41,656 nucleotides of DNA from NCBI GenBank assembly GCA_017437005.1, contig JAFSBZ010000048.1:1-41656 (forward strand), written 5' to 3'. Below are positions 7,601 to 41,462 of the stretch, in pieces (positions within the stretch are counted from its first letter, which is position 1; each line of letters begins with the position of its first letter). Below the pieces are notes generated by a model. It was not told the origin of the DNA and made no database searches. It saw only the letters and a list, made by a program, of their open reading frames with translations. The position numbers and the translations under genes are program-made. The stretch comes from Clostridia bacterium. Its GTDB lineage: Bacteria; Bacillota; Clostridia; Oscillospirales; Acutalibacteraceae.

Positions 7601-8121
7601 GCGGCAAATTGACCTATACCCTCGCAAAGCTCTGAACGTACATATCCCGCGTTTACAAGTCGGGTGCAAAGCTCGCCCATATCCACTGTATCACCGGTGC
7701 CGATATTAATAATATTTTTTGTTAAAATCTCGGGCGATACAGTGTACTGAACGGCCGAATCCACAGGTATTAACACCACGTCAAAAGCCCTATCAAGAAC
7801 TCTTGATAGGGTGTCAACACGCTTGTGTTCATATTCTTTTGAGTAGCCGGTCATACGCGTAAGATTATAGTCTCTGCCATGCAAAATCAGCGAATTTACG
7901 CCAAGCGAATTAAGGTCACCTTGCATCGATACAGCCGCAGGTTCGTCAGAAACAAGCACAAAAAGCTTTTTATCCGTATGATTTGAAAGTGCGGATATAA
8001 TAATCGCCTTATGAACCTCCGACAAACCGCTCGCCGCTATAGGCAGGTCGCCTTTTTGCACATCTTTGAGTAAGCGCGTATAATCAGGCTCGGTTTTAAG
8101 TATATCAAATAAACATTTCAT
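4693..8121 (-). CDS. mfd: Transcription-repair coupling factor
   Basis: An ATP-driven translocase that removes RNA polymerase stalled at DNA lesions and recruits UvrA. The 1142-aa length is normal. In order: UvrB-like N-terminal modules, the CarD-like RNA-polymerase-interacting segment (LNHGDYVVHASHGIGIFDGI), Walker A CGDVGFGKTEVA near residue 630, the DEEQ box IIDEEQRFGV, TLSATPIPRTL, helicase motif VI HQLRGRVGRSPRRAY, and a C-terminal UvrA-binding region. The gene starts 6 bp after pth and has no obvious ribosome site, suggesting translational coupling. Confidence 0.97.
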   Translation of the reverse strand: MKCLFDILKTEPDYTRLLKDVQKGDLPIAASGLSEVHKAIIISALSNHTDKKLFVLVSDEPAAVSMQGDLNSLGVNSLILHGRDYNLTRMTGYSKEYEHKRVDTLSRVLDRAFDVVLIPVDSAVQYTVSPEILTKNIINIGTGDTVDMGELCTRLVNAGYVRSELCEGIGQFAARGGIVDVFATGSDNPVRIEFWGDKIDNISYFDIESQRRADTIDGIKIFPANELPFNAKALAQDLESYINKNKKLTDLQKDFITKDIDRLKNGLTVSSDLYIPFLYEKQGTIFDYLQDGLLVSCETGNVFERLKSVFALEKEDVTSLLERGELCPKSAKLRMSSIEFLSKLQNAVFLENFPRTSYDFALKDLLSFNFKRSTAWSGDLNTLCEDISYTTHMKGTVIILAGEEKTARVLTAELCDRGINAIYIQNASQSLGGGVFVLSGGLSSGFELPSVKLSVITHRHIASDSKRTYKRHKDGKRINSLDELNHGDYVVHASHGIGIFDGINRITNSGVTKDYIKIKYAGTDVLYVPVTQLDLVSKYIGAAEDSGIKLNKLGGSEWQRTRARVKKAVRDMAKQLTALYAKRMATKGHAFAEDGDLQSGFESRFEYEETDDQLRSINEIKRDMERDVPMDRLLCGDVGFGKTEVALRAAFKCVSEGKQCALLVPTTILAMQHYNTVVRRFGELPLNVKLLNRFVSKSEQQKTIQGLKSGRVDMVVGTHRLISKDVKFKNIGLVIIDEEQRFGVAQKERLKELYPFVDILTLSATPIPRTLNMAMSGLRDMSTIDEAPSDRHPVQTYVLEQNDGVLLDAINKELRRGGQVYYLHNRIDSITRCAAKLKQKLPDAQIGIAHGKMSEDELSDVWKKLLDHEIDVLVCTTIIETGVDVPNANTLIIEDADRMGLSQLHQLRGRVGRSPRRAYAYFCFKRNREISETATKRLEAIRQFTEFGSGFKIAMRDLEIRGAGSILGGEQHGNMEAVGYDMYLKLLADAVNEEKGIESHEDLVCTIDLNVSAHIPENYISALPARLGIYRRIADIRDESDVDDVIDELCDRFGEPPKSVMGLIHVALLRSKASAVGITEVTSTQNTAVLHTVKIDMEVAAKLAEEFESQFSVSAIGEPAYVIRLNNGLKLQDAVARLSKIL

Positions 8122-8127
8122 ATTAAT

Positions 8128-8724
8128 TTACTTGCTGTATTTGTTCATAGCCGAATCTATTCCTCGGGCTATAATCTCTTCAACAGCCTTTACTGCGTTA
8201 ATGCAGGCAGCTTTAAAATCGTTTTCCTGTTCTGACGGTATTTTACCAAGCACCCAATCCTTCATATCGTAATCAGGATGCGGTTTTGCGCCAACGCCGA
8301 TTTTTATACGAGGTATTTCTTCGGTACCAAGCATCTGTATTATATTTGCAAGCCCTTTTTGACCGCCTGCGCTTCCCTTACGTCGAATACGAATTTTGCC
8401 CACATCAAGCGATACGTCATCGTGCATTATAATAATCTTGTCAACAGGAATTTTATAAAATGCCGACAGCTTTTGTACGGCTGTGCCCGACAAATTCATA
8501 TAGGTCTGCGGTTTTACAACAAGCACACGCGCGCCCGCAATTGTGCCGTCGCCATAAAGAGCATCAAATTTGGATTTTGAAACACTTATATTAAATTTAT
8601 CCGATAACATATCTGCGGCTACAAAGCCTGCATTGTGGCGGGTGTTTTCATACTCGCGACCGGGGTTCCCAAGCCCCGCAACAAGATAATCAAAAGTGCC
8701 GCCCTTGTCTTTTTTTAAAAACAT
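8128..8724 (-). CDS. pth: Peptidyl-tRNA hydrolase
   Basis: Frees tRNA from peptidyl-tRNAs that drop off the ribosome. The 198-aa product has [18 protein letters not shown] with the catalytic His, PQTYMNLSG with the conserved Asn, and [20 protein letters not shown] with the catalytic Asp. The ATG at 8724 is preferred: GGTGA lies at the right distance, while upstream GTG/TTG codons have no such site. The first residues (MFLKKDKGG) are an unusual short extension before the core. First gene of the pth-mfd-lipoprotein operon. Confidence 0.95.
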
Positions 8725-8741
8725 TTTTATCACCAAAGGTT

Positions 8742-8770
8742 ATATTAACACAATGTTTACCTTTATTCAA
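8742..8770 (-). promoter_or_regulatory. Promoter of the pth-mfd operon
   Basis: Reading the minus strand: TTGAAT (8770-8765), 17 bp, TAATAT (8747-8742). It lies back to back with the rubrerythrin promoter, 10 bp away. Confidence 0.5.
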
Positions 8771-8780
8771 GAAAATATAC

Positions 8781-8809
8781 TTGATAATTTTAAAAATTCG
8801 TTATATACT
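8781..8809 (+). promoter_or_regulatory. Promoter of the rubrerythrin gene
   Basis: TTGATA (8781-8786), 17 bp, TATACT (8804-8809), about 30 bp before the rubrerythrin start codon. I see no clear PerR or Fur box. Confidence 0.65.
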
Positions 8810-8840
8810 AATCTTAAGAAATAAAAGGAGGTTTTTACCA

Positions 8841-9389
8841 ATGGGCGTAAAGGCAAACAAATACTCAGGCACACAAACCGAAAAAAATTTGATGGAAGCA
8901 TTTAGCGGTGAATCGCAGGCTCGCAACAAATACACCTACTTTGCATCAAAGGCAAAAAAAGAAGGCTTTGAACAAATAGCTGCACTTTTCCAAAAAACCG
9001 CTGATAATGAAAAAGAACACGCAAAAATGTGGTTTAAGGAACTAAACGGTCTTAGTGACACAGCAGAAAATCTGCTTAACGCCGCCGAAGGCGAAAACTA
9101 TGAATGGACCGATATGTACGCAGGCTTTGCCGAAACAGCCGACAAGGAAGGTTTTCCGGAGTTGGCCGCAAAATTTAGAATGGTTGCCGCTATTGAAAAG
9201 CACCACGAAGAACGTTATCGTGCGCTTCTTAACAACGTTGAAACCGCTCAAGTGTTTGAGCGCAGCGAGGTTAAGGTTTGGGAATGCCGCAACTGCGGTC
9301 ACATTGTAGTAGGCACCAAAGCTCCCGAAATGTGCCCCGTATGTGCACATCCTAAGGCATACTTTGAAATCCACGCAGAGAATTATTAA
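8841..9389 (+). CDS. rbr: Rubrerythrin
   Basis: A di-iron peroxidase that reduces hydrogen peroxide in anaerobes. The 182-aa protein has a ferritin-like four-helix domain with iron ligands in the GESQAR helix, EKEHAKMW and [12 protein letters not shown]-terminal rubredoxin domain follows with the two cysteine pairs CRNC and CPVC. The ATG at 8841 is chosen for the AAAGGAGG site; a longer frame from 8781 begins inside the promoter. Monocistronic, with its own promoter and terminator. Confidence 0.96.
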
Positions 9390-9429
9390 GTCTCATTAGA
9401 AAACTTAATAACACTAAAGTCTACTCTAA

Positions 9430-9461
9430 AACATCCCCGCCGATTTATCGGTAGGGATGTT
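9430..9461 (+). terminator. Terminator after rubrerythrin
   Basis: Stem AACATCCC (9430-9437) with GGGATGTT (9454-9461), inner CCGA/TCGG, followed by a T-rich tract. The right arm overlaps the last codon of the converging GerAB-like gene. Confidence 0.7.
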
Positions 9462-10260
9462 ATTGTTTTATTATACAATTTTTTACTACCTCTATACAAA
9501 CGGCAGTCTTAATCAAAGCCGTTATAAAAAACACAAACCACACAAGACCATCTAACCGTGTAAACAAACTACCCGACGATATTACACTTATAGATTTTAA
9601 ATAAGGAAATGAAATATTACTATTTGCGCCAAAAGTAAGCATTATTTGCAACATGGCAACCAAAAGCATTAAAAAGCCTATTGACACACCAAAAAACATA
9701 GGTTTTATATCTCTTTTATCTGTTTTTACAAAAAACACAAGCGCCACTAATGATACAAAAAACCGCATAAAGTTTTTCAAAGAAAAAGAAAAGCTTAAAG
9801 CCCGTATGTCTAAATTTTGATAATCAAAGCTTTTTATTCCACCCACAAAGCATATCGCCATTATTGCCACTATAAGCACGAAAACAAAAAGGCTATATTT
9901 GTAAATCGCCGTAGTTTTACTTATAGTAAAAAACGCAACCGTAACCGCAAAAGCAATGCCAAGCAATAAAACACTTGTTTGTGGCAACTGTTCATTTTTT
10001 AAAAATTTAATATAGTCCAAAAAAGTTATCGCCACGCTATATATCGCCGTAGCGCACACAAATGCAACTGCACAAAAGTATATAAATTTATTTTTTTGAG
10101 ATAAATTAAATAAATACATGGCCAAAAATATCATTATCAACGCCAAAGCAAAACACATCAGTAAATTAAATAAATTTAAACCCGACATTATAATTACGGC
10201 GTTACCAAACGTAAAAAGCGAGCTAAGAGCCAATATGTGCGGTTTATATTTTTGTGTCAT
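9460..10260 (-). CDS. Shortened GerAB-like germinant receptor permease subunit
   Basis: The B subunit of GerA-type receptors is an APC-fold membrane protein that senses germinant in the inner spore membrane. This 266-aa protein is almost wholly hydrophobic, with about eight membrane segments. The family-typical end SFPYLKSISVISSG.. LFTRLDGLVWFVFF is clear. B subunits are usually about 360 aa with ten helices, so roughly 100 residues are missing, apparently internally, since both ends look normal. It overlaps the C-subunit gene by 4 bp (ATGA), and the A subunit lies upstream. Germinant unknown. Confidence 0.72.
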   Translation of the reverse strand: MTQKYKPHILALSSLFTFGNAVIIMSGLNLFNLLMCFALALIMIFLAMYLFNLSQKNKFIYFCAVAFVCATAIYSVAITFLDYIKFLKNEQLPQTSVLLLGIAFAVTVAFFTISKTTAIYKYSLFVFVLIVAIMAICFVGGIKSFDYQNLDIRALSFSFSLKNFMRFFVSLVALVFFVKTDKRDIKPMFFGVSIGFLMLLVAMLQIMLTFGANSNISFPYLKSISVISSGSLFTRLDGLVWFVFFITALIKTAVCIEVVKNCIIKQ

Positions 10261-10832
10261 TTACTATCCTCCGCTTGCTTTAAAATTAGATTTCCGTCAA
10301 ATATATTTACCGTTGGCAATTTAATCGTTTTACCCTGCGCTTTATAAAGTTGGTTAACTATATGCTTTTTTGTCTCTTTTTCCCTTGTTTTTATAAGCGT
10401 TATAATATCATACCCCAATACGCCACTTGGAGTTTGACCCTCAAAGAGCGTGTTTGCATCATCAGTTAACGCAATATATATTCCTGGGTTTATATTTGTA
10501 ATTTCACCTAAAAGTTTAAAGTCGGGCTTTATTGTTTTTTCAAAAACAACCGTGCCCAATTGCTCAAAATAAAGCGGCTTTACAAGATTGCTTTTTAAAT
10601 TTTGATAAGCCTGCTTATTACTTTTTCCAACGCCGGTCAATAATATTCTTTCTTGTTTTTTATCTGACATATCCGATGCGGACAGCGCCTCTATATAAAT
10701 TGTAGACTGATCGTTTTTTGCACCAAACCCCATTGCCGTTACCATATATCCACGATTAACCTCGCGATAGCCCATACATCCGCAAAGCAAAAAACACAAG
10801 GCAAAAGCCATAAAAAAATACAGTTTTTTCAA
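10257..10832 (-). CDS. Short GerAC-like lipoprotein (first domain only)
   Basis: The C subunit of a GerA-type receptor is a lipoprotein of about 370-400 aa with three domains. Here a signal peptide with lipobox (FLLCGC) leads into GYREVNRGYMVTAMGFG and a domain running to residue 191. It ends where domain 1 should give way to domains 2 and 3. The stop codon lies in the 4-bp overlap with the B gene, so the shortening is not an obvious recent frameshift. It begins 1 bp after the A-subunit gene. Probably a natural minimal form. Confidence 0.68.
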   Translation of the reverse strand: MKKLYFFMAFALCFLLCGCMGYREVNRGYMVTAMGFGAKNDQSTIYIEALSASDMSDKKQERILLTGVGKSNKQAYQNLKSNLVKPLYFEQLGTVVFEKTIKPDFKLLGEITNINPGIYIALTDDANTLFEGQTPSGVLGYDIITLIKTREKETKKHIVNQLYKAQGKTIKLPTVNIFDGNLILKQAEDSK

Positions 10833-28139: not shown

Positions 28140-29267
28140 TTATTTATATCCAAAATAATAATTCAACAAATCTCGTGTTTGATCTAGTTGCATCATTTCG
28201 TTACCTGCAATCAACTCATCCACTAAAAACATATAAAAATATGTTAAAATTTCTTTTATATTATTCACTCCCAAATCAACAATAGGCAGCAATCCTATCT
28301 CGCAGAAAAATCCCATTGCTTCGCGTCGCTCGGCAATAATTTCATTGCGTATCGGAGCCGAAAAGCAAAGCTTCTCTTTTGGCAAGACAATATCAAGCAT
28401 ACTGTAATGGTTTCTGTCGTTTGCTTTCTCTTGAATATCGAATCGTGGTTGGTACTCAAATATTTCTTTAAGCACATTCCACACAGCATTTAATTCATTT
28501 AACTGACAAAGCGCGCGTGTGTTAATGTCTAGCAAAAACAATTTTGCCGCCATTGCTTTGCGCAGATTTTCACTTTTTTGCTTTTCACAAAGTCTTTGCG
28601 CTTTCGTTAGATACTGAATATCCTGATCGGATACATCCTCGTCATTAGCTATTCGTTTCTCAATTTCATAACATTGGCTTTCCAATGAATTTATATTTTC
28701 ATCATCTAAATTTATACTTATGTTAAAATCCTTGTCGCGCTTGGCAATTATTTCAATAAGCTGCAATTTTTGCAAGCCTGTGGGCTGGTTGCTTTTTCCT
28801 TTGAGGTCAAGTCTAAAATCGAAATGATAATTTTTAATAACCTTTCCCATCACATTTATCTGATCTCCGTTGATAAGTCCGCGCACACGGCTTATAACTT
28901 TATCAAGTTTGTCCGACAAATTGTTTTGATCAACAAACATTGTCTGTAGATTGACAAAATGATATACAGCGCCACCAACAAGCTCACTATTGTCAATATT
29001 TACACAAATCATAGCGCAGTTTGACGCATCGGCCAAATTGATTTCCTTATAACATTGTTTTGAAGCCGCTGAGTTTTTGCTTTGCAAAAACAAAAAAACC
29101 TTGCACGATCTAATAGCATCAACAATTTTGTCAGCCCAATCCTCTCCACCATCAATATCTCTCGAGCAAACCCAGCAATCGATGCCGTTTTCTTCTAAAG
29201 CATCTTTAATAATATTTACTACCGATGCATCTACGTGTGAATGACTGATAAATACTGTTTTTTTCAT
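28140..29267 (-). CDS. TIR-domain protein with unknown C-terminal domain
   Basis: 375 aa. Residues 1-130 are a TIR domain: VFISHSHVDASVVNIIKDAL, GIDCWVCSRDIDGGEDWADK, and KQCYKEI, where Glu75 sits at the position of the NADase catalytic glutamate. The remaining 240 residues match nothing I recognise and contain a charged coiled region (about 195-240). Bacterial TIR proteins in such settings deplete NAD or make signal nucleotides on phage infection. The ATG at 29267 is chosen for AGGTGA. Its start region overlaps a 35-codon ORF. It lies between a backbone gene and a restriction operon, pointing to defence; that role is inferred. Confidence 0.8.
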   Translation of the reverse strand: MKKTVFISHSHVDASVVNIIKDALEENGIDCWVCSRDIDGGEDWADKIVDAIRSCKVFLFLQSKNSAASKQCYKEINLADASNCAMICVNIDNSELVGGAVYHFVNLQTMFVDQNNLSDKLDKVISRVRGLINGDQINVMGKVIKNYHFDFRLDLKGKSNQPTGLQKLQLIEIIAKRDKDFNISINLDDENINSLESQCYEIEKRIANDEDVSDQDIQYLTKAQRLCEKQKSENLRKAMAAKLFLLDINTRALCQLNELNAVWNVLKEIFEYQPRFDIQEKANDRNHYSMLDIVLPKEKLCFSAPIRNEIIAERREAMGFFCEIGLLPIVDLGVNNIKEILTYFYMFLVDELIAGNEMMQLDQTRDLLNYYFGYK

Positions 29268-29272
29268 ATACA

Positions 29273-29380
29273 TCACCTACAAATAAATATTGTGTTTAAA
29301 ATGTTGTTTTTATCTATACGCTTTTGGTGTCCTCGCACGGTAGCCACCGCATACTTCATATTGTATTTTTCTTCTATCAT
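29273..29380 (-). CDS. 35-aa small ORF just upstream of the TIR gene
   Basis: ATG at 29380 with AAGGTGG eight bases upstream; 35 codons ending in a TGA whose next bases run into the TIR gene's start region (six bases before its ATG). The product, beginning MIEEKYNMKYAVATVRG, is basic and matches nothing I know. Its good ribosome site and tight spacing suggest either a real peptide or a leader that couples translation of the TIR protein. It could instead be the residue of a longer lost gene. Confidence 0.45.
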   Translation of the reverse strand: MIEEKYNMKYAVATVRGHQKRIDKNNILNTIFICR

Positions 29381-29671: not shown

Positions 29672-29685
29672 AATACTCAAGTATT
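29672..29685. promoter_or_regulatory. Palindrome upstream of the restriction operon promoter
   Basis: AATACT-CA-AGTATT is a perfect inverted repeat; a further half-like GGTATT follows at 29695-29700. It lies 13 bp before the -35 box. A candidate operator for the HTH domain of the downstream methylase. Confidence 0.4.
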
Positions 29686-29698
29686 TTCAATTTTGGTA

Positions 29699-29727
29699 TT
29701 GCTATTATTCTCGATTTGGAATATAAT
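29699..29727 (+). promoter_or_regulatory. Promoter of the restriction/TIR operon
   Basis: TTGCTA (29699-29704), 17 bp, TATAAT (29722-29727), then GGAGG at 29744. No further promoter of this quality was seen before the terminator at 37140. Confidence 0.65.
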
Positions 29728-29755
29728 ATGATTAACAACCTATGGAGGTATAGTT

Positions 29756-30823
29756 ATGGAATTTATGTCCGCAAGAGAAGCAGCTGATAAATGGGGTATC
29801 TCTCAAAGACGAGTTGCTGTACTCTGTTCTGAAAACAGAATTGCCGAAGCAACAATGGTGGGCAACATGTGGATTATACCAACAAATGCTGAAAAGCCTA
29901 TTGATGCAAGAAGCATTCGTTACACTAAGGATGATGAGAAGACAGTAAAGCCTTTCTTAAAATGGGCTGGCGGTAAAGGGCAACTCCTTAAAGAAATTGA
30001 GCAATACTATCCTTTTGACCATAAAATTACAAAGTACGCCGAACCATTCGTTGGTGGCGGCGCAGTATTATTTGATGTCCTCAGAAAATTCGATATTCAG
30101 GAAGTTTATATTAGCGATATAAATGCAGAACTGATTAATGCCTATCGCATCATCAGAGATAACATAGACGAATTGATAACTACGCTCAAAACATATCAAG
30201 AAGAATATATCCCACTCCCAACAGAAGAACGCAAAGTCTACTACATGACTAAAAGGGAAAAATTCAACGACTTAAAAGTCAATGGGAATGAAACCGTAAA
30301 TATAGAAAAAGCAGCATTAATGATATTCCTAAATAAAACGTGCTTTAACGGTCTATATAGAGTAAATAAAAAGGGTCTTTTCAATGTACCGATGGGTGCA
30401 TATAAGAATCCTATGATATGTGATGAAAAGAACCTACGAGAAGTTTCAGCAAAACTTCAAAACGTAACTATAGTCTGCGGTGATTATAGAGAATCAGCAG
30501 AATTTATCGATGAACACACTTTCGTATACTTTGATCCTCCGTACAGACCACTTACAGATACCGCAAGTTTCACTGCATATACCGAGAATCTGTTCAACGA
30601 TGAAGAACAAATCGATCTCGCAAGATTCGTAGATGCTATGCACAAAAAAGGTGCAAAAATAGTAGTCAGTAACTCAGACCCCAAAAATTCGAATACAGAA
30701 GATGACTTCTTCGACAACATCTATAACGCACATAAAATAAAACGTGTAGAAGCCACCCGAATGATTAACTGTAATAGTGAATTACGAGGAAAAATTAAAG
30801 AATTACTTATTAGTAATTTTTAA
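29756..30823 (+). CDS. HTH-fused adenine-N6 DNA methyltransferase (Dam/DpnM type)
   Basis: 355 aa. Residues 1-55 are a helix-turn-helix (SAREAADKWGISQRRVAVLC...) of the excisionase/MerR-like kind. Residues 65-355 form a D12-class (alpha) methylase with FLKWAGGKGQL (67-77), EPFVGGGAVLFD (96-107) and catalytic DPPY (260-263). Enzymes of this type methylate adenine, usually in GATC, and here the DpnII-family nuclease two genes on makes GATC the likely target. The added HTH could repress its own promoter. Ribosome site GGAGG, spacing 7. First gene of the operon. Confidence 0.92.
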   Translation: MEFMSAREAADKWGISQRRVAVLCSENRIAEATMVGNMWIIPTNAEKPIDARSIRYTKDDEKTVKPFLKWAGGKGQLLKEIEQYYPFDHKITKYAEPFVGGGAVLFDVLRKFDIQEVYISDINAELINAYRIIRDNIDELITTLKTYQEEYIPLPTEERKVYYMTKREKFNDLKVNGNETVNIEKAALMIFLNKTCFNGLYRVNKKGLFNVPMGAYKNPMICDEKNLREVSAKLQNVTIVCGDYRESAEFIDEHTFVYFDPPYRPLTDTASFTAYTENLFNDEEQIDLARFVDAMHKKGAKIVVSNSDPKNSNTEDDFFDNIYNAHKIKRVEATRMINCNSELRGKIKELLISNF

Positions 30824-30834
30824 TGGAGGTAAAA

Positions 30835-31437
30835 ATGACTTACGAATACGATGTAGCATTATCATTCGCTGGTGAAGATCGAAAATTTGTTGAAGAGTGT
30901 GCAGAAATATTACGTTCACTGAATATCAATGTTTTTTACGATAACTACGAAAAAGATGTTTTACTTGGAAAAAACCTTTATAATTATTTAGTAGATATTT
31001 ATCAAAACAGAGCGCGTTTTGCTGTTGTATTTGTTTCAAAATCATATAAAGAAAAACGCTGGACAAAGCATGAACTCGAATACATTACTGCACGTAAATT
31101 TAAGCAAGACGAAGAATATCTTTTGCCTGTAAAACTTGACCAAACCGAACTCGATGAAATACCTTTAACCACGGGGTATCTACAAGGCGATGCTCCAATA
31201 AATGTTGCTGTAACAATAGCAAAAAAAGTAAATCCTAAATTAGATTTGGAATTGATGTTATCTGAATTAAAATATCATCTGCCCAATTACGAAATTAGTA
31301 TTAGTGGTAGTGAAGTTTGCTTTGCTTGTCAGCAAGAAGATTTTTACGCAACATACCCAATTGGCTTTATGATGGAATTATATCGTCAAGATTTGATTGA
31401 GCGAGCATTTATTCTACCTGCAATTGTACCAAACTAA
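30835..31437 (+). CDS. Small TIR-domain protein embedded in the restriction operon
   Basis: 200 aa. The TIR fold opens EYDVALSFAGEDRKFVEECA, continues through LNINVFYDNYEKD, and has FVSKSYKEKRWTKHELEYI, where Glu80 fits the catalytic glutamate of NAD-cleaving TIRs. The last 80 residues (from about 120) are an unrecognised extension. The ATG at 30835 is preferred because GGAGG lies just before it; a 4-codon-longer ATG overlaps the methylase stop. It stands 11 bp after the methylase and 15 bp before the DpnII-type nuclease, so it is an integral operon member. An abortive-infection effector is inferred. Confidence 0.82.
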   Translation: MTYEYDVALSFAGEDRKFVEECAEILRSLNINVFYDNYEKDVLLGKNLYNYLVDIYQNRARFAVVFVSKSYKEKRWTKHELEYITARKFKQDEEYLLPVKLDQTELDEIPLTTGYLQGDAPINVAVTIAKKVNPKLDLELMLSELKYHLPNYEISISGSEVCFACQQEDFYATYPIGFMMELYRQDLIERAFILPAIVPN

Positions 31438-31452
31438 CAAAAGGAGATATTT

Positions 31453-32331
31453 ATGAATAGAGAGTTTAACACTTGGCTATCAGGTTTTCGTGATAGCATA
31501 GCGGATTATGGTTATTACATAGATTTTGAAAAGGTTCATAGGAATGTTAGCAACATAAAAGTTGAACTAAATATTTTAAATTCTCTTATAGGCTCAAAAG
31601 ATATAGAATCCGATTTTGAGAATTTATTAAGAAAGTATCCCGAAATATTAAAATGTATTCCGTTACTTTTAGCTGTTAGAGCAAGCGAAATATACTGTCA
31701 GGATGAAAACGGCGGATATTTATTCCAATTTGATTTTGGTAAATATCCTCCTAACAGTCACGCTTATTATGAGAGATACAAATATTTTATGCGTGAAACC
31801 GGATTGTTTGATTTATTAGAAAAACATATCGTGAACAATTTGGTAGACTATGCAACGGGTGTTGAAACAGGTCTTGATTCCAACGGTCGTAAAAATCGTG
31901 GCGGGCACCTTATGGAAGATTTGGTTGAGAGCTTTATTCGAAAAGCAGGTTTCATAAAAGGTGTTAATTACTTCAAAGAAATGTATATTCACCAAATTAC
32001 AGATAAATGGAATATAGATTTATCCGCTATTTCCAATCAAGGCAAGATGGAAAAGCGTTTTGATTTTGTCATTAAGACACCAAATATGATCTATGGTATT
32101 GAAACCAACTTTTACGGAAGTGGTGGTAGCAAACTAAACGAAACTGCACGTAGTTACAAAACTCTTGCGTGGGAAACCGAAGAAATTGACGGTTTTACTT
32201 TTGTTTGGTTTACCGATGGCAAAGGTTGGACAAGTGCAAGAAACAACTTGGAAGAAACATTCGATGTTATGAAACACATTTACAATATAGAAGATATGGA
32301 AAACAACATAATGCAACAGATTTTTATTTGA
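31453..32331 (+). CDS. DpnII/MboI-family type II restriction endonuclease
   Basis: 292 aa, the length of DpnII. Visible family blocks are GVETGLDSNGRKNRGGHLME (136-155) and the nuclease core RFDFVIKTPNMIYGIETNFY, SGGSKLNETARSYK (from about 202), with Asp204 and Glu217 as probable metal ligands. DpnII cuts before unmethylated GATC. The matching methylase begins the operon. AAGGAG precedes the ATG. Recognition of GATC is inferred from family. Confidence 0.9.
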   Translation: MNREFNTWLSGFRDSIADYGYYIDFEKVHRNVSNIKVELNILNSLIGSKDIESDFENLLRKYPEILKCIPLLLAVRASEIYCQDENGGYLFQFDFGKYPPNSHAYYERYKYFMRETGLFDLLEKHIVNNLVDYATGVETGLDSNGRKNRGGHLMEDLVESFIRKAGFIKGVNYFKEMYIHQITDKWNIDLSAISNQGKMEKRFDFVIKTPNMIYGIETNFYGSGGSKLNETARSYKTLAWETEEIDGFTFVWFTDGKGWTSARNNLEETFDVMKHIYNIEDMENNIMQQIFI

Positions 32332-32366
32332 TAAGCTGATTTATTCGCAAATAAAATTTCTGTAAG

Positions 32367-32386
32367 ACCTGCTCAATGCAGGTTTT
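32367..32386 (+). promoter_or_regulatory. Short hairpin in the operon's widest gap (possible attenuator)
   Basis: ACCTGC-TCAAT-GCAGGT followed by only four T, in the 80-bp gap after the DpnII-type gene. Too weak for full termination; it might lower expression of downstream genes. Confidence 0.3.
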
Positions 32387-32411
32387 GCTCGTTGTAGGAA
32401 GGATAAACGCT

Positions 32412-32936
32412 ATGGCAGAACATGAAATTACATTCTCTTTCTCAAATGAAGGAACTCGAAACGAAGTAAGACTGAGAGTGGTAGAAGAATTCGCAAAAGA
32501 AATTCCTGGGACTATTGAAGAAACTGAAAGATATACATACTATGTGGAAACACTGAAAGATGGTAATAGAGTCTACTTGCGTCGTCCGGCAAATTTACAT
32601 AATGGCTTTGATTTTTTGGTTTGTGTGGAGAATATGAATTATGCACAGCCGGAAGAAAGGCGAAGAAACAGTCCTAAACATGATGATTTAGCTGCAGATC
32701 TACAAGCCAAAAAGATTGAAAATCATCAAATGTACGCAAGATTATATGAACTGTTGGAAAAAGTCTTTGAGTGTCACGATGTTACAGAAGACGATATGGA
32801 AGGTATTGAATTTCTCTCCGGATTATCAGTAGAACATATAATTAAAACAATTAAATGGCTTTTTATTGAACAGGATATCCGATATTGGAACTATTCGGGC
32901 AGAAATATGACTTGGGGTATAGTTCCTAAACCGTAG
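32412..32936 (+). CDS. Unknown 174-aa protein of the restriction operon
   Basis: I do not recognise a named family. The protein is soluble, starts MAEHEITFSFSNEGTRNEVR, has a central RVYLRRPANLHNGFDFLVCVE segment, a charged helical stretch (about 95-120) and a C-terminal EHIIKTIKWLFIEQDIRYWN. No nuclease, methylase or TIR motif is visible. AGGAAGGA precedes the ATG at 32412. Its place after the DpnII-type nuclease and before an Mrr-like nuclease suggests an accessory or control role. Confidence 0.75.
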   Translation: MAEHEITFSFSNEGTRNEVRLRVVEEFAKEIPGTIEETERYTYYVETLKDGNRVYLRRPANLHNGFDFLVCVENMNYAQPEERRRNSPKHDDLAADLQAKKIENHQMYARLYELLEKVFECHDVTEDDMEGIEFLSGLSVEHIIKTIKWLFIEQDIRYWNYSGRNMTWGIVPKP

Positions 32937-32966
32937 TGAATTCAAAAAATATAAGGAGAGTCTTTT

Positions 32967-33803
32967 ATGCAAGTAAGCTCAATGCTTTCGGATAGTGAAA
33001 TAAAACAATTTCAACAAGAATTATATTCTTATTTTCAAACAGGATATGAGTTTGAAGATTTTTTGAAAGAATATTTATCAAAAATGGGACTTGATGAAGT
33101 TCAAGTTACACAGCGTTCAAGAGATGGCGGAGTCGACCTAACCGCTATCAGAAAAGGTGTTGGTGATTTTAGTGAAATCGACACTACACATTATTACATA
33201 CAGGCAAAAAGGAACTCATTAACTAATAAAGTTAGTGTCCAAAAAATCAGAGAGTTAAAAGGAACAATACCTTTTGGATACAAAGGAATGTTAATTACAA
33301 CCTCCGATTTTACTGCCGACGCTATTTCTGAGGCTACTAATGATCCTTCCAAACCTGTTGTAGCTATTAACGGAAAAGCACTTGTCATAAGTTGTATTGA
33401 TAACGAAATCGGATTTTTATTTAAACCGGTGTTTAGTAAGAAACAAATGGATTCGTTCTTGAATAGAACTTTGCAAAATGGTACTCAACAAAATCTAACG
33501 CAAGCCATTGAAAACAATACTATCGAAAAAATTATTACAAACAACGACATAAGAGCGCGAATTGTTTCCATTCCTTCTGCAATAATGAGAGCATTTGATG
33601 ATAACATCGACACTGTAAATGTAGAAGTTAACGGTACTAACAACTATGTATTCACAGTTATTCGTGGAAGAAATTATTTTGGAAGCGTAACTACATTCTT
33701 TCGTGACTTTGGGTTGCTTTCCGATGATGGTGTTATTACTCCTAAGAAATGCAAATGGTTTTACGATGAAACTAATTCCATTGTAAAATTATTTTTAGAA
33801 TAA
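32967..33803 (+). CDS. Mrr-like PD-(D/E)XK endonuclease
   Basis: 278 aa. The N-terminal half is an Mrr_cat-type domain: GYEFEDFLKEYLSKMGL (26-42), RSRDGGVDLTAIR with Asp57, and YYIQAKR with Gln79-Ala-Lys81, then VSVQKIRELKG and KGMLITTSDFT. Many Mrr-type enzymes cut modified DNA. The second half is unrecognised and may sense the target. Ribosome site AAGGAGAG. Its activity must tolerate the host's own methylation, which argues for a different trigger. Confidence 0.85.
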   Translation: MQVSSMLSDSEIKQFQQELYSYFQTGYEFEDFLKEYLSKMGLDEVQVTQRSRDGGVDLTAIRKGVGDFSEIDTTHYYIQAKRNSLTNKVSVQKIRELKGTIPFGYKGMLITTSDFTADAISEATNDPSKPVVAINGKALVISCIDNEIGFLFKPVFSKKQMDSFLNRTLQNGTQQNLTQAIENNTIEKIITNNDIRARIVSIPSAIMRAFDDNIDTVNVEVNGTNNYVFTVIRGRNYFGSVTTFFRDFGLLSDDGVITPKKCKWFYDETNSIVKLFLE

Positions 33804-33828
33804 ACAAATGGTGGGAAGGTGATCTAAC

Positions 33829-34368
33829 ATGCCTATTAATATTTATGGTGGCGGAGCTCGAACAAATGAAAACGGGCTGAAGTTCGAGCAAGAAACAAGT
33901 CTTGCTGATGCTTTATATAATGCTGGATATACAATAACAACCAGAAACATAGTTAAAGATAAATATGGTAACTGCTTGGGCATTATAGCACCAAAACATG
34001 CTTTTTATAAACTAATATTAGAGCCAGAGGGCGTTGATTGGCGTGATTACATATCAAAACGGTTGTTGCCGGATGAAGCATTATTGAATTTTACAAACAA
34101 CACCGTATATATCATCGAAAAGAAATTCCAACATGATTCAGGATCGGTGGATGAAAAGCTGCAGACATGTGATTTCAAGAAAAAACAATACCAAAAGTTA
34201 TTTTATGATACAGATTATGACGTGGAATATTTATATGTATGCAACGATTGGTTCGAACAGCCTTGTTATCGTGATGTCCATAAATATATTTATTCTGTTG
34301 GTTGTCACATATTTTTCAATGAAATACCTCTTGAATTTTTAAATTTGCCGTTGGCAGAGCAGGAGTAA
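33829..34368 (+). CDS. PD-ExK nuclease, probable second restriction endonuclease
   Basis: 179 aa. It opens GGGARTNENGLKFEQETSL and carries Pro81-Asp82 and IIEKK with Glu97 and Lys99, a PD-x(14)-ExK arrangement, followed by SGSVDEKLQTCDFKKKQYQK. This is the layout of compact type II restriction enzymes. A methyltransferase gene follows 4 bp later, so the pair probably forms its own restriction-modification unit with an unknown target. AAGGTGAT precedes the ATG. Confidence 0.68.
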   Translation: MPINIYGGGARTNENGLKFEQETSLADALYNAGYTITTRNIVKDKYGNCLGIIAPKHAFYKLILEPEGVDWRDYISKRLLPDEALLNFTNNTVYIIEKKFQHDSGSVDEKLQTCDFKKKQYQKLFYDTDYDVEYLYVCNDWFEQPCYRDVHKYIYSVGCHIFFNEIPLEFLNLPLAEQE

Positions 34369-34372
34369 TAGT

Positions 34373-35119
34373 ATGGCTAAGAAAATAACCAAATGGGAGC
34401 CTGAAGATTTTGAATTGGAAATGACAACGCATTGGTCGTTTCCTAAACGCGGTGATTGGGCTACCCATGATGCAAAGTGGCGTGGTAATTGGTCGCCTTA
34501 TATTCCTCGTAACATTCTTTTGAGATATTCAAACGAGGGTGATTTGGTACTTGACCAATTCGCCGGTGGTGGTACAACTCTTGTTGAAGCAAAATTACTT
34601 AATCGTAATATAATTGGCGTTGATGTTAACGATGTTGCATTAGAAAGATGCAGAGAAAAAACAACTTTTGAACATGAAGGTGCTAAAGGTAAGGTTTATA
34701 TTCATAAAGGTGATGCTCGAAATCTTGATTTTGTTCCTGACGACAGCATTGATTTGATTTGTACACATCCACCTTATGCCGATATTATTCAATATAGCGA
34801 AAATATTCCCGAAGATCTGTCTTTATTAAAAGTTAAAGACTTTCTTAAAGAAATGGAAAAAGTTGCAGCTGAGAGCTATCGTGTTCTTAAAAAGGACAAG
34901 TTCTGTGCAGTTCTTATGGGTGATACACGCCAAAAAGGTCACATGATACCAATGTCCTTTGAAGTTATGCGCATTTTTGAGAATGCAGGATTTAAACTGA
35001 AGGAATTGATAATAAAAGAGCAACACAATTGCAAAGCCACAGGTTATTGGAAAACAAACAGTGTGAAATATAACTTCTTGTTGATTGCACATGAGTATTT
35101 ATTTATTTTTAGGAAGTGA
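34373..35119 (+). CDS. DNA methyltransferase (N4-cytosine/N6-adenine, beta-type order)
   Basis: 248 aa. The SAM-binding motif DQFAGGGTTLVEAK lies at 61-74, with NIIGVDVN at 79-86. The catalytic motif is THPPYADIIQYS (131-142), where HPPY replaces the common SPPY or DPPY. DTRQKGHMIPM and a C-terminal YKTNS-like KTNSVKYNFLLIAHE follow. Such TRM11-like methylases modify the exocyclic amino group of C or A. Paired with the nuclease 4 bp upstream, it presumably protects the same site. Confidence 0.85.
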   Translation: MAKKITKWEPEDFELEMTTHWSFPKRGDWATHDAKWRGNWSPYIPRNILLRYSNEGDLVLDQFAGGGTTLVEAKLLNRNIIGVDVNDVALERCREKTTFEHEGAKGKVYIHKGDARNLDFVPDDSIDLICTHPPYADIIQYSENIPEDLSLLKVKDFLKEMEKVAAESYRVLKKDKFCAVLMGDTRQKGHMIPMSFEVMRIFENAGFKLKELIIKEQHNCKATGYWKTNSVKYNFLLIAHEYLFIFRK

Positions 35120-35124
35120 AAAAG

Positions 35125-36834
35125 ATGAGTTTCAATCCAAATGAAATTAGTATAGGCAGAGTGTTATCGAATAACGTTCAATATATGGTTCCAAGGTATC
35201 AACGTAAATATGTTTGGAATGAGCAACAGTGGAAAAATCTTATAGAAGATATCTTGTCATCGATGAATGTAGTTTCAACAGAAGAAAGATACCATTTCAT
35301 TGGAAGTTTTATATTTGAGAAAAAGAATAATGGCTGGATAATTGTTGATGGACAACAGAGATTAACAACGATAACAATTTTGCTTGCGGTAATTTCTAAA
35401 CTTTTCGCAATAAATAATGAATCTAATCTATATGAGGGCATAAGAAAATATTGTATATTAAAAATGGATGACGGCTCCGAAAAAATGCGAATAGTAAATG
35501 AGGATTTTACTGTTTTTTCCAACATTGTATATGATTATTTTTTATTTCCGGGCAACACGTTGTCATTAGGGGAATTTTTCGAAAAAGAAAATATAACGAT
35601 AAGTAAAAATGGTTTGCCATTTGTAAAATGTTATCAATATTTTTATGATTATATTACAGAATATATGTCTTCTTTGTCCAGTGAGAAAAGCGTAGAGTGG
35701 CTCAGCAATTTTAGAGATGCAGTTATTAATTTGAAAGCAATTGAAATAACGGTTGATAAAGAACAAGAAGGGTACATAATTTTTGAAATTTTGAACTCTC
35801 GCGGAATGCCTCTTGAACAGCATGAATTACTCAAGAATTATATCTTTATGTATTACAAGGATTCTGTCGGAAGTGATATTGCTAAAGATAAATGGAATAT
35901 GATAGTTTCTAATGTTGAAGGAGACTCGTTATCTTCGTTAAAGCGCTTTATTTCTCATTATATAACTCATCGCTTTGGTAAGGTTTCAAAGGCGTTAGAA
36001 TATGCAACAATAAAAAAAGAAGTTTCAAAGGATAATGTCAAAGAATTTTTAGATGACTTGCTATTTAAATCCGAATTGTACCATTCGTTTAGCAACATCA
36101 ATGAAAGTAAATATACGCCTGCTATTAATTATGTCCTTAAATTTTTAATCAATAACAACAATTATCAGTTTAGGCCTATATTATTGAGTTTATTTGAGGC
36201 TCTGCAGAACGGATTAATTTCTACTGAAAAAGTTGAAAAATACCTTGTTTCAATCAAAAATTTTCTTTCTATTTATGTTGTTGTTTGTAAAGAAAAAACC
36301 AACGCCTTGGAAAAACTTATATATGATTATTCCGTGTTACTCCACAATGATTTCACAAAAGAGTTAATGGATGAATTTATTAATTCTTTATTCCTAAAAC
36401 TTAGTAAAGAAAAGTTTATCGCTGACTTTTCTCAACTTATGTATACTAACAATCAGAAAAAACATTCAAATCTTAAAAGAAACGCCAGAAAGGAATGTAG
36501 ACACATATTATATGAGTATGAAATATATTTATCCAAAATAGACGACTATCGATTGACAAGGTTCACAATTGAGCATATACTGCCTGATTCGGATAATGAC
36601 GCTGTGGTTTGTCATGTGGGAAATATGATACCATTAGTTCGCAGGCTAAACAATCGCCTAAAAGATTCGACAGTGGAAGAGAAGTCTAAAGAATATAAAA
36701 AATCTCCTTTTGTTTCGGTTAAAGAATTTGTGGAATTGCATGAAAACCAAAAGAAATGGGACAAGGATTCAATAGAAAAACGAACGAAGTATATGGCTAA
36801 TAAGTTTTGGGATGAAATATGGATAAAAAAATAA
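35125..36834 (+). CDS. Single-chain GmrSD-type nuclease (DUF262-DUF1524)
   Basis: 569 aa. N-terminal DUF262 (ParB/Srx-like NTPase) carries PRYQRKYVWNEQQW and IIVDGQQRLTT (72-82). The C-terminal DUF1524 is an HNH nuclease with FTIEHILPDSD (Glu483-His484), VGNMIPLVRRLNNRLKDS and KEYKKSPF. GmrSD and BrxU proteins cut DNA carrying modified cytosines (type IV restriction). The ATG at 35125 is preferred; a GTG at 35116 overlapping the previous stop is too near the AGGA site. Confidence 0.88.
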   Translation: MSFNPNEISIGRVLSNNVQYMVPRYQRKYVWNEQQWKNLIEDILSSMNVVSTEERYHFIGSFIFEKKNNGWIIVDGQQRLTTITILLAVISKLFAINNESNLYEGIRKYCILKMDDGSEKMRIVNEDFTVFSNIVYDYFLFPGNTLSLGEFFEKENITISKNGLPFVKCYQYFYDYITEYMSSLSSEKSVEWLSNFRDAVINLKAIEITVDKEQEGYIIFEILNSRGMPLEQHELLKNYIFMYYKDSVGSDIAKDKWNMIVSNVEGDSLSSLKRFISHYITHRFGKVSKALEYATIKKEVSKDNVKEFLDDLLFKSELYHSFSNINESKYTPAINYVLKFLINNNNYQFRPILLSLFEALQNGLISTEKVEKYLVSIKNFLSIYVVVCKEKTNALEKLIYDYSVLLHNDFTKELMDEFINSLFLKLSKEKFIADFSQLMYTNNQKKHSNLKRNARKECRHILYEYEIYLSKIDDYRLTRFTIEHILPDSDNDAVVCHVGNMIPLVRRLNNRLKDSTVEEKSKEYKKSPFVSVKEFVELHENQKKWDKDSIEKRTKYMANKFWDEIWIKK

Positions 36835-36882
36835 TGCATATCTTGCAACACATCGTAATATACTATAATTGGTGAATTATTT

Positions 36883-37077
36883 ATGTATTGTTTGAAATGC
36901 AAAAAAACGAGTAATGATAATTGGTTTTATATATGGGCAAATGAGAACGATATAAACGAATGGTGTGTTTCAAAAAATCCTTGTATCTTTAAAAATTATG
37001 CTATTGTTTCCGAGTTGTTTTCTAAGCTTAACGATAAACCGAATAATATTCGAGAACTAATTATAGAAAAAATCTAA
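36883..37077 (+). CDS. 64-aa cysteine-containing protein at the operon end
   Basis: Starts MYCLKCKKTSNDNWFYIWAN, with one CxxC near the N-terminus and two later Cys (WCVSKNPC), a possible small zinc finger. GGTGA lies seven bases before the ATG. A TTGCAA...TATAAT pair at 36843-36869 has a 15-bp spacer, so a separate promoter is doubtful. It lies 48 bp after the GmrSD gene and just before the operon terminator. Function unknown. Confidence 0.5.
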   Translation: MYCLKCKKTSNDNWFYIWANENDINEWCVSKNPCIFKNYAIVSELFSKLNDKPNNIRELIIEKI

Positions 37078-37086
37078 TTTTTATTG

Positions 37087-37140
37087 CAGAACTATCTTTG
37101 TATCGGTGTAACTGTATTACAAAGATGGTTCTGTTTTTTT
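37087..37140 (+). terminator. Terminator of the restriction/TIR operon
   Basis: A 16-bp stem CAGAACTATCTTTGTA / TACAAAGATGGTTCTG (37087-37102, 37118-37133) with one wobble pair, then T7. It is the only strong terminator in the 7.3 kb after the operon promoter. Confidence 0.9.
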
Positions 37141-37212
37141 ATTTAATATATTGCTGGACTTATGGAAAGTGTTGTGGTATGTGTTTGTGTTGCAAAAGGA
37201 GGTGCAACGCAC

Positions 37213-37497
37213 ATGAAAACACTTGAAGATTTATATTATGGAAACATCAGTCCACACGAAAGGTATATCAAGCGAGGGACGAGAGTGGATAAGCTCGTCA
37301 AACTCATATGCAAAAACGAGGAAGAACTCAACGCAGGACTCACAGAGAAGCAGAAAGAAACCTTTGAGAAGTTCAAGGACTGCACAAGCGAGCTATCCTG
37401 CATCACCGAACGTGAAGCGTTCAGTTCGGGATTTATACTTGCCACTCGTATAATGGCAGAAGTGATGCAAGGACTGGAAGAGGTTGAGGATATATGA
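37213..37497 (+). CDS. DUF6809-type protein of mobile elements
   Basis: 94 aa, highly charged and helical: MKTLEDLYYGNISPHERYIK, then EELNAGLTEKQKETFEKF and ITEREAFSSGFILATRIM. This is the pattern of DUF6809 proteins common on conjugative elements of gut Clostridia. The ATG at 37213 follows AAAGGAGG; a longer frame from 37162 has no ribosome site. It overlaps the next gene by 4 bp (ATGA). Role unknown. Confidence 0.75.
   Translation: MKTLEDLYYGNISPHERYIKRGTRVDKLVKLICKNEEELNAGLTEKQKETFEKFKDCTSELSCITEREAFSSGFILATRIMAEVMQGLEEVEDI

Positions 37498-39797: not shown

Positions 39798-41462
<1,665 letters not shown>

Follow-up and report, generated by a model that had tools for sequence, protein, structure and literature searches.

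A probable composite GATC restriction-modification operon with an exchangeable slot between two methylases in a clostridial genome

Introduction

Why would a TIR protein and several nucleases be encoded between and behind two DNA methylases? The question is raised by contig JAFSBZ010000048.1 of the Clostridia bacterium assembly GCA_017437005.1 (Acutalibacteraceae), whose 41,656 nucleotides are called the window here. Nine open reading frames (ORFs) follow one another on the + strand at 29756–37077. They encode a Dam-class adenine methylase (Dam), a TIR domain protein (TIRa), a DpnII-type restriction endonuclease (DpnII), an uncatalogued protein (U4), an Mrr-type nuclease (Mrr), a small PD-ExK protein (PDEXK in gene orders), a second amino-methyltransferase (MTb), a GmrSD-type nuclease (GmrSD) and a small Cys-containing protein (Cys64). 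Type II restriction is commonly pictured as a pairing of one methylase with one nuclease, and DpnII cuts unmethylated GATC. We consider it likely that the nine genes make up one composite GATC restriction-modification operon with an exchangeable slot between Dam and MTb. Among the loci examined, the window is the most loaded example, a heavily loaded version of a known kind of GATC operon.

Results

A frame from Dam to MTb with exchangeable contents

A search of a genome-contig collection gave 516 candidate MTb loci, and the best 80 of them, with MTb at 85–94% identity, were used. This sample is skewed to close relatives, mostly uncultured Clostridia, and includes records of Mycoplasmopsis gallinarum, Megasphaera hutchinsoni, a Desulfovibrio and Anaerofustis stercorihominis. 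Loci are cited by our own labels (L or G with a number); three contigs carry two of them (G137/L117, G640/L143 and G899/L088). The Dam-to-MTb interval is complete in 71 of the 80 loci, to which the interval counts refer, and the nine incomplete loci were omitted. Bare Dam-DpnII-MTb accounts for 32 of the 71, followed by Dam-PDEXK-DpnII-MTb (nine), Dam-PDEXK-MTb and Dam-X177-DpnII-MTb (eight each), Dam-Mrr-DpnII-MTb (four) and one-off arrangements (ten); X177 is described below. DpnII is present in 59 intervals, PDEXK in 19 and a MutH/Sau3AI-like gene in four, and at least one of these three occurs in all 71. The intervals hold one recognised family in 40 loci, two in 28 and three in 3, as detected by hidden Markov models from small hand-picked sets, which miss distant or short genes such as the unassigned small ORFs of 60–84 aa in L073, L128 and L133. 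With five genes between its methylases, the window has the longest interval met, compared with the 71 complete loci.

The same frame is conserved closer to home. Fifteen of the 70 genomes in a survey of the genus, own genome included, carry a nearly full-length MTb with at least 85% identity, and one extra match is fragmentary. The neighbourhoods read Dam-DpnII-MTb, Dam-PDEXK-MTb or Dam-Mrr-DpnII-MTb; among the first kind, one locus has an extra gene of 90 aa and one is truncated within DpnII by the contig end. On a tree of MTb DNA with 72 rows, at least 35 changes are required to explain the slot pattern; support for the tree is weak, with stars on 18 of its 69 inner branches. Some well-supported clades mix slot contents and others are uniform; the five members of one clade (L099, L102, L106, L112 and L128) have five different contents.

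The initial annotation presented the nine genes as one combination and proposed a search for the same gene order in other Clostridia. Relatives of TIRa, U4, Mrr, the PD-ExK protein and GmrSD do recur in or beside GATC loci, but the full nine-gene set was found nowhere else. Because the parts recur and the whole does not, the locus appears to be a modular frame, not a fixed nine-gene system. The PDEXK-MTb junction is present in many loci, and a DpnII-U4b junction, U4b being a distant form of U4, was met three times elsewhere, two of these probably on the same contig. MTb-GmrSD and PDEXK-U4 junctions occur in a Mycoplasmopsis isolate (L141), a DpnII-Mrr-MTb order occurs in a Fusobacterium record (L171), and fragments of Mrr and U4 are adjacent in L145. 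An assembly chimera is unlikely, given the recurrence elsewhere of the orders Dam-TIR-DpnII, PDEXK-MTb, MTb-GmrSD, PDEXK-U4 and DpnII-Mrr-MTb, although DpnII-U4, U4-Mrr and Mrr-PDEXK are not among the direct junctions that recur.

The isolate locus (NZ_JHZE01000005.1, M. gallinarum DSM 19816, 4966–10780) reads Dam-MutH-PDEXK-U4-MTb-GmrSD followed by a weakly similar Cys protein. This copy is of clostridial type and lies near the mycoplasmal genes rpsB and tsf. In-frame TGA codons are present in rpsB, tsf and the Cys ORF but in none of the six main genes of the copy; the absence of TGA from the main genes suggests that the operon was recently transferred.

The second methylase

MTb (34373–35119; PADLOC MTase_II, 510 bits) has the motif FAGGG at residue 63 and HPPY at 132, so that motif I precedes motif IV. 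The order is opposite in the DpnA-type gene of L162, in which DPPY comes first, and MTb is thus not of the DpnA type. The initial annotation had described it as a second methylase of a different type that came with a nuclease of its own. The difference in type from DpnA stands, whereas the separate system is not supported: the PD-ExK gene is missing from 52 of the 71 complete loci, and MTb is usually the last gene. Since, in addition, no interval lacks all of DpnII, PDEXK and the MutH-like gene, MTb appears to go regularly with Dam in a widespread type of GATC restriction operon and not to belong to any single nuclease. As judged by protein family, MTb, Dam and DpnII would all be specific for GATC.

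DpnII and the small PD-ExK protein

DpnII (31453–32331) matches PF04556 with an E value of 5e-111, which places a DpnII-family endonuclease in the same operon as Dam, and its identity to the copies in the genus is 63–91%, mostly 79–91%. The small PD-ExK protein (33829–34368) was recognised from alignments and from its pairing with Dam. Its Pfam match is below the cut-off (19.0 against 23.7 bits), and the PADLOC, NCBIfam and PHROGs models gave no match at the thresholds used. A sequence search of the PDB with the PD-ExK and U4 profiles gave only matches at E 0.04 or weaker, none of them a nuclease. The residues P81-D82...E97-x-K99 are present. In eight of the 71 loci, no other recognised nuclease is encoded between Dam and MTb; in nine, the protein is stacked ahead of DpnII.

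The PD-ExK gene is not confined to the frame. It is present in seven lactic-acid-bacterial plasmid records, and in the two that were examined it follows a DNA adenine methylase gene, without MTb. Of 21 PDEXK loci on viral contigs, 12 have Dam nearby and three another methylase; some of the viral loci used here lie on the same or near-identical contigs (L174/L175 and L176/L182/L226). A phage search with the protein gave no match. In the evenly drawn class genome sample, the only PDEXK outside the own genome adjoins MTb (1/1). In N. gonorrhoeae, pieces of the gene are found behind a methylase fragment and a gene of the DpnI family, an arrangement that resembles the NgoAXI locus; this identity is our reading of the available part of PMC6789123, in which a dam allele of that locus methylates GATC. 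Because plasmids and viral contigs also carry the gene next to Dam where MTb is missing, the simplest reading is that it is a second GATC endonuclease.

The TIR protein

TIRa (30835–31437; PF13676, 4e-15) aligns with the NAD hydrolase AbTIR. The catalytic-type Glu lies in the motif WTKHEL and is kept in the window and in L091, L204, L205 and L216; the C-terminal part of about 75 residues ends in AIVPN. TIRa is predicted to be an NAD-depleting enzyme. Four full-length relatives were found, and all of them lie in Dam- or DpnII-type loci. For TIRa and Mrr, genomes were searched at 1e-20, a threshold chosen to exclude generic relatives. Three of 381 class genomes match TIRa, namely the own genome and two others, both with the gene in a Dam locus. 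One of the two (L204) has the order Dam-TIR-DpnII-MTb, and the other has Dam, a DUF6997-type protein of 432 aa and the TIR gene, with one stop codon in the matched frame of the last. L091 reads Dam-TIR-DpnII-HNH-MTb, with a TIR protein 83% identical to TIRa, and an unverified phage-labelled scaffold contains a DpnA-type piece, Mrr, DpnII and a TIR gene. The position of TIRa between methylase and DpnII, which had been singled out at the outset, therefore recurs in two other species (L091 and L204). Since the family recurs at Dam/DpnII loci, it is conceivable that it serves as a dedicated guard of GATC systems.

No match to the TIR protein was confirmed on the viral contigs searched. Plasmids gave eight matches, each covering at most 72% of TIRa. 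The two examined are other TIR proteins, whose annotated neighbours include no Dam gene; one of the two has a dcm-annotated methylase about 2 kb away. A Thoeris assignment was also rejected, with no SIR2, SLOG or other ThsA-type domain among the nine gene products or in TIRb, a second TIR protein encoded upstream (Pfam, E 0.1).

U4, Mrr, GmrSD and Cys64

U4 (32412–32936, 174 aa) gave no match in Pfam, PADLOC, NCBIfam or PHROGs, nor in the phages and plasmids searched. In a comparison of eleven family profiles, only the pair U4 and U4b exceeded 15% probability (96%). U4 was found in seven of 391 class genomes; with the own genome and one contig end omitted, all five remaining copies lie in GATC loci, two of them resting on U4b. 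Two of three further matches in a search for relatives are also in GATC loci, and on viral contigs U4 accompanies Dam and a MutH-like or DpnII gene in eight of eight loci, two of which are near-identical. In five of the 71 complete loci, U4 is convergent to MTb and lies behind a small Xre-type HTH gene, a known layout for controlled restriction genes. As judged from these neighbourhoods, U4 appears to be mostly tied to GATC loci.

Mrr (32967–33803; PF04471, 2.5e-24) has the motif D...QAK and a C-terminal domain. The class search gave five matches outside the own genome, two of which lie in Dam-Mrr-DpnII operons; no match was confirmed on viral contigs, and PHROGs gave none. In L213 (7400–9279), a relative with 63% identity adjoins a DpnI-family gene (PF06044, 5e-75). 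A DpnI-type enzyme acts on methylated GATC, according to the available part of PMC4081073. Because Mrr accompanies both DpnII and a DpnI-type gene, it can hardly read the methylation state of GATC itself.

GmrSD (35125–36834) has both domains of type IV restriction enzymes of this kind, GmrSD_N (PF03235, 3e-36) and GmrSD_C (PF07510, 7e-13), and matches HEC-06 (8e-72). Relatives are encoded behind MTb at two other loci, L141 and L103, the one in L103 being cut by the contig end. GmrSD and Mrr may act on DNA that evades GATC cutting through its modification or other features. Cys64 (36883–37077) gave nothing in Pfam at E 0.1, as was also the case for U4. A weakly similar ORF (29%) was found behind GmrSD in L141 by BLAST and was not recovered by a profile search.

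Operon boundaries and the conserved promoter

The nine genes are separated by gaps of 4–80 bp, and Shine-Dalgarno-like sequences precede most of the starts; that of Cys64 has none. A consensus scan of the window found a promoter match (10/12) at 29699–29727. Downstream, a hairpin at 37086–37134 and the U-run behind it form a strong intrinsic terminator on the + strand (37086–37140; −25.1 kcal/mol, z −8.3). A simple terminator scan gave no + strand match between the operon genes and two within genes (30049 in Dam and 33887 in PD-ExK); the same scan missed the hairpin at 37086–37134. The layout of nine same-strand genes between one promoter and one strong terminator, as it had been described initially, agrees with these data, and the nine genes appear to form a single operon that would be transcribed as one unit.

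Pfam assigns D12 methylase, TIR_2, DpnII, Mrr_cat, N6_N4 methylase and GmrSD_N/C families to the operon proteins, and the catalytic-type motifs of Dam (DPPY), MTb, TIRa, Mrr and the small nuclease are all kept. Dam (29756–30823) is a D12-class methylase as expected for a DpnII-type restriction-modification system (TIGR00571, 298 bits, above the cut-off; PF02086, 2e-66). It also has a weak N-terminal match to HTH_17 (20.6 bits against a cut-off of 27).

The promoter is conserved together with the frame. Of 72 regions upstream of dam, 61 contain the pattern TATTG-N17-GAATATAAT, with one spacing throughout although 12–20 was permitted. These regions comprise 65 from the 71 complete loci and seven from the window and others; one is a duplicate, without which the count is 60 of 71, with the exact pattern missing in 11. 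The pattern was derived from the very loci on which it was then counted. The 9-mer GAATATAAT was found in 59 of 66 upstream regions, compared with a maximum of about 4 after shuffling. The pattern overlaps the −35 and −10 boxes and holds an imperfect dyad (CTATTATTC-N8-GAATATAAT, 29697–29727 in the window, + strand), a candidate operator for the N-terminal HTH of Dam. The own genome (85% completeness) has one site with the spacing of the pattern, at 29697–29727, and one chance-like site with another spacing. Because Dam carries the weak HTH match, it is plausible that it binds the dyad at its own promoter and autoregulates the whole set.

Discussion

A working model and its alternatives

In the model that we favour, the two methylases, Dam in front and MTb as the last of the frame, would methylate and protect the GATC sites of the host. 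The slot between them, which usually holds one or two nucleases, here holds DpnII and the PD-ExK protein plus TIRa, U4 and Mrr, with GmrSD and Cys64 appended behind MTb. Unmethylated incoming DNA would be cut by DpnII and the PD-ExK enzyme, and DNA that escapes GATC cutting would be attacked by Mrr and GmrSD. TIRa would be an NAD-consuming back-up, which may act once the restriction layer is blocked or overwhelmed, and HTH-Dam on the promoter dyad would set the dose of the whole set. Such a layered defence by stacked nucleases and a TIR protein is plausible.

Several observations weigh against this model. The whole set is held by no other locus examined, and the direct junctions DpnII-U4, U4-Mrr and Mrr-PDEXK are absent from all of them. 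The window has 53 promoter-like matches compared with 37 expected from shuffles, including one before U4 (10/12, 32328–32357) and one within the GmrSD gene (11/12, 36553–36581), which tempers the prediction of a single transcript. Single members of the cargo also break the pattern: the U4 copy in G136 adjoins a DndB-like gene outside any GATC locus, the TIR relative in G711 has one stop codon inside the matched frame, six of the 21 viral PDEXK loci have no recognised methylase, and, of the five Mrr matches, one lies beside the DpnI-family gene and two elsewhere. GATC is scarce in the window (41 observed, about 111 expected), as are CTAG, CATG, GGCC and CCGG (all five 0.11–0.42 of expectation); we rejected this as evidence of specificity because GATC is also scarce in genus stretches without a close MTb. 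In L162 (7472–13408), an HTH-PDEXK-U4 unit is divergent from a 56% homologue of MTb, with DpnII, Dam and a DpnA-type methylase alongside, so that MTb could have a specificity of its own.

The last point bears on a different division of the genes, into two tandem systems, close to the view of the initial annotation, in which Dam and DpnII would act on GATC, MTb and the PD-ExK protein on another site, and the remaining defence genes would be strays. The motif order of MTb, which differs from that of DpnA, fits such a division, as do the 56% homologue in L162 next to a DpnM-DpnA-DpnII set and a 55% homologue in L164, which is divergent from an HTH-U4 unit. However, PDEXK is missing from most MTb loci (52 of 71) and pairs with Dam on plasmids and viral contigs that lack MTb, and the MutH/Sau3AI-like and DpnII genes that occupy the same slot before MTb both belong to families of GATC cutters; we regard two tandem systems as rather unlikely. 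The locus could also be a defence-island pile-up behind a strong promoter, with TIRa, U4 and Mrr functionally independent of GATC methylation. The slot contents turn over fast, Mrr relatives and one U4 also occur elsewhere, and the region is bordered by another TIR gene on one side and a serine recombinase gene on the other. Random islands, however, are not where the four full-length TIR relatives and most U4 relatives sit, which is at Dam/DpnII-type loci, and the order Dam-TIR-DpnII recurs. A pile-up is thus unlikely. Finally, U4, Mrr and the PD-ExK protein might be regulators or clean-up factors for DpnII cuts instead of primary effectors. This would suit an Mrr that accompanies DpnII and, in one case, a gene of the DpnI family and so can hardly read GATC methylation, and a U4 that is never the sole nuclease-like gene in the GATC loci examined (it is so in the HTH-U4 unit of L164). 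It does not suit the PD-ExK protein, which keeps its residues and is the sole recognised nuclease in eight of 71 loci, and the proposal seems improbable.

The composite operon can be extended to a more specific reading, which we offer tentatively and think somewhat doubtful: GATC methylation may be a shared self-mark for plug-in effectors, and the TIR family a specialised guard that fires when GATC restriction is blocked or saturated. The dam-side promoter and the two methylases would be the fixed chassis, onto which DpnII, the MutH-like and PD-ExK enzymes and perhaps U4, HNH364 and X354 would be stacked. If this were true, Type II systems would have their own equivalent of PrrC, acting by NAD depletion, and two or more uncatalogued nuclease families would be added.

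Relation to known systems

SsuDAT1I reportedly has two isoschizomeric GATC endonucleases in one operon with two methylases. The window resembles loci of the DpnII/SsuDAT1I type in having a Dam-class methylase, a DpnII-family endonuclease and a second methylase. It differs from them in that MTb is not of the DpnA type, in the additional TIR, U4, Mrr, PD-ExK and GmrSD genes, in the HTH-like part of Dam and in the conserved operator-like promoter. Sau3AI/MutH-type and NgoAXI loci are similar as places where alternative GATC nucleases occupy the same kind of locus, but they are not operons of this composition.

The embedding of defence genes inside other defence loci is a known principle. PrrC and RloC are suicide-type guards inside restriction operons that act as a second line, as described in the available part of PMC3710099. 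TIRa and its relatives are likewise embedded in a restriction operon. However, a TIR protein here takes the place of the HEPN anticodon nuclease, and the host system is Type II instead of Type I; Pfam finds only the TIR domain in TIRa and no HEPN anticodon nuclease with an ABC ATPase. A PrrC-type guard is held inactive by the restriction complex and freed by anti-restriction, a mode of control that may apply to TIRa. TIR proteins are also encoded in or beside paraMORC restriction operons together with a GHKL ATPase (PMC2292703, available part), whereas Pfam recognised no GHKL ATPase in the operon of the window. In PADLOC, GmrSD, Mrr and TIRa are matched best by HEC-06, PDC-S02 and PDC-S66, respectively; the matches of Mrr and TIRa are partial and limited to the catalytic-domain stretch. 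According to the accessible passages of PMC12988326, PDCs were identified by guilt-by-embedding, and several Hma-embedded candidates, including HEC-06, are antiviral. The host operon here is, in contrast, a GATC system.

In the literature covered (the starts of abstracts and some passages), no description was found of a TIR gene in a DpnII-type operon or of nested Type II cargo. Within these limits, the new findings are the Dam-to-MTb frame with its putative exchangeable slot and operator-like promoter, the apparent association of U4 and of one TIR family with GATC systems, and the exceptional number of genes loaded into the operon of the window. If the frame and slot are as proposed, a widespread clostridial GATC system would serve as a vehicle in which nucleases and suicide genes are exchanged and accumulated under a single mark and a single regulator, which would suggest how these bacteria keep up with phages that evade a single nuclease. 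To look between dam and MTb would then be a simple rule for finding new defence genes, and whether a TIR protein can guard a restriction system would become tractable to test.

Neighbouring genes and further observations

The operon region has a GC content of 0.29–0.36 per kilobase, lower than most of its flanks. TIRb (378 aa) is encoded just upstream on the − strand (28140–29276), outside the operon; it has weak PADLOC matches to ThsB models of Thoeris, and its NCBIfam match to Thoeris III is far below the cut-off. Downstream, a DUF6809 gene (37162–37497) and a gene for a large serine recombinase with DUF4368 (39822–41462, near the contig end) probably belong to a mobile element.

Other loci showed further contents of the frame. 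X177 is an uncatalogued family of about 177 aa located between Dam and DpnII (for example, L136, 6594–7127), to which Pfam and PHROGs gave no match. Single inserts or neighbours include an ATPase-like protein in L106 (6460–7983) and a 445-aa protein without family assignment in L115 (5786–7123). In L212 (10395–12224), the gene for an AAA/OLD-like ATPase overlaps the end of MTb, and in L162 a protein with a DGQHR motif follows the set of Dam, DpnA-type methylase and DpnII. A DUF1883-TIR protein in L137 (from about 8745) begins no more than a few bases away from where MTb ends and appears to be a second, different TIR protein recruited to such an operon. In L019 (9036–10910), Dam and DpnII are fused in a single open frame of 624 aa.

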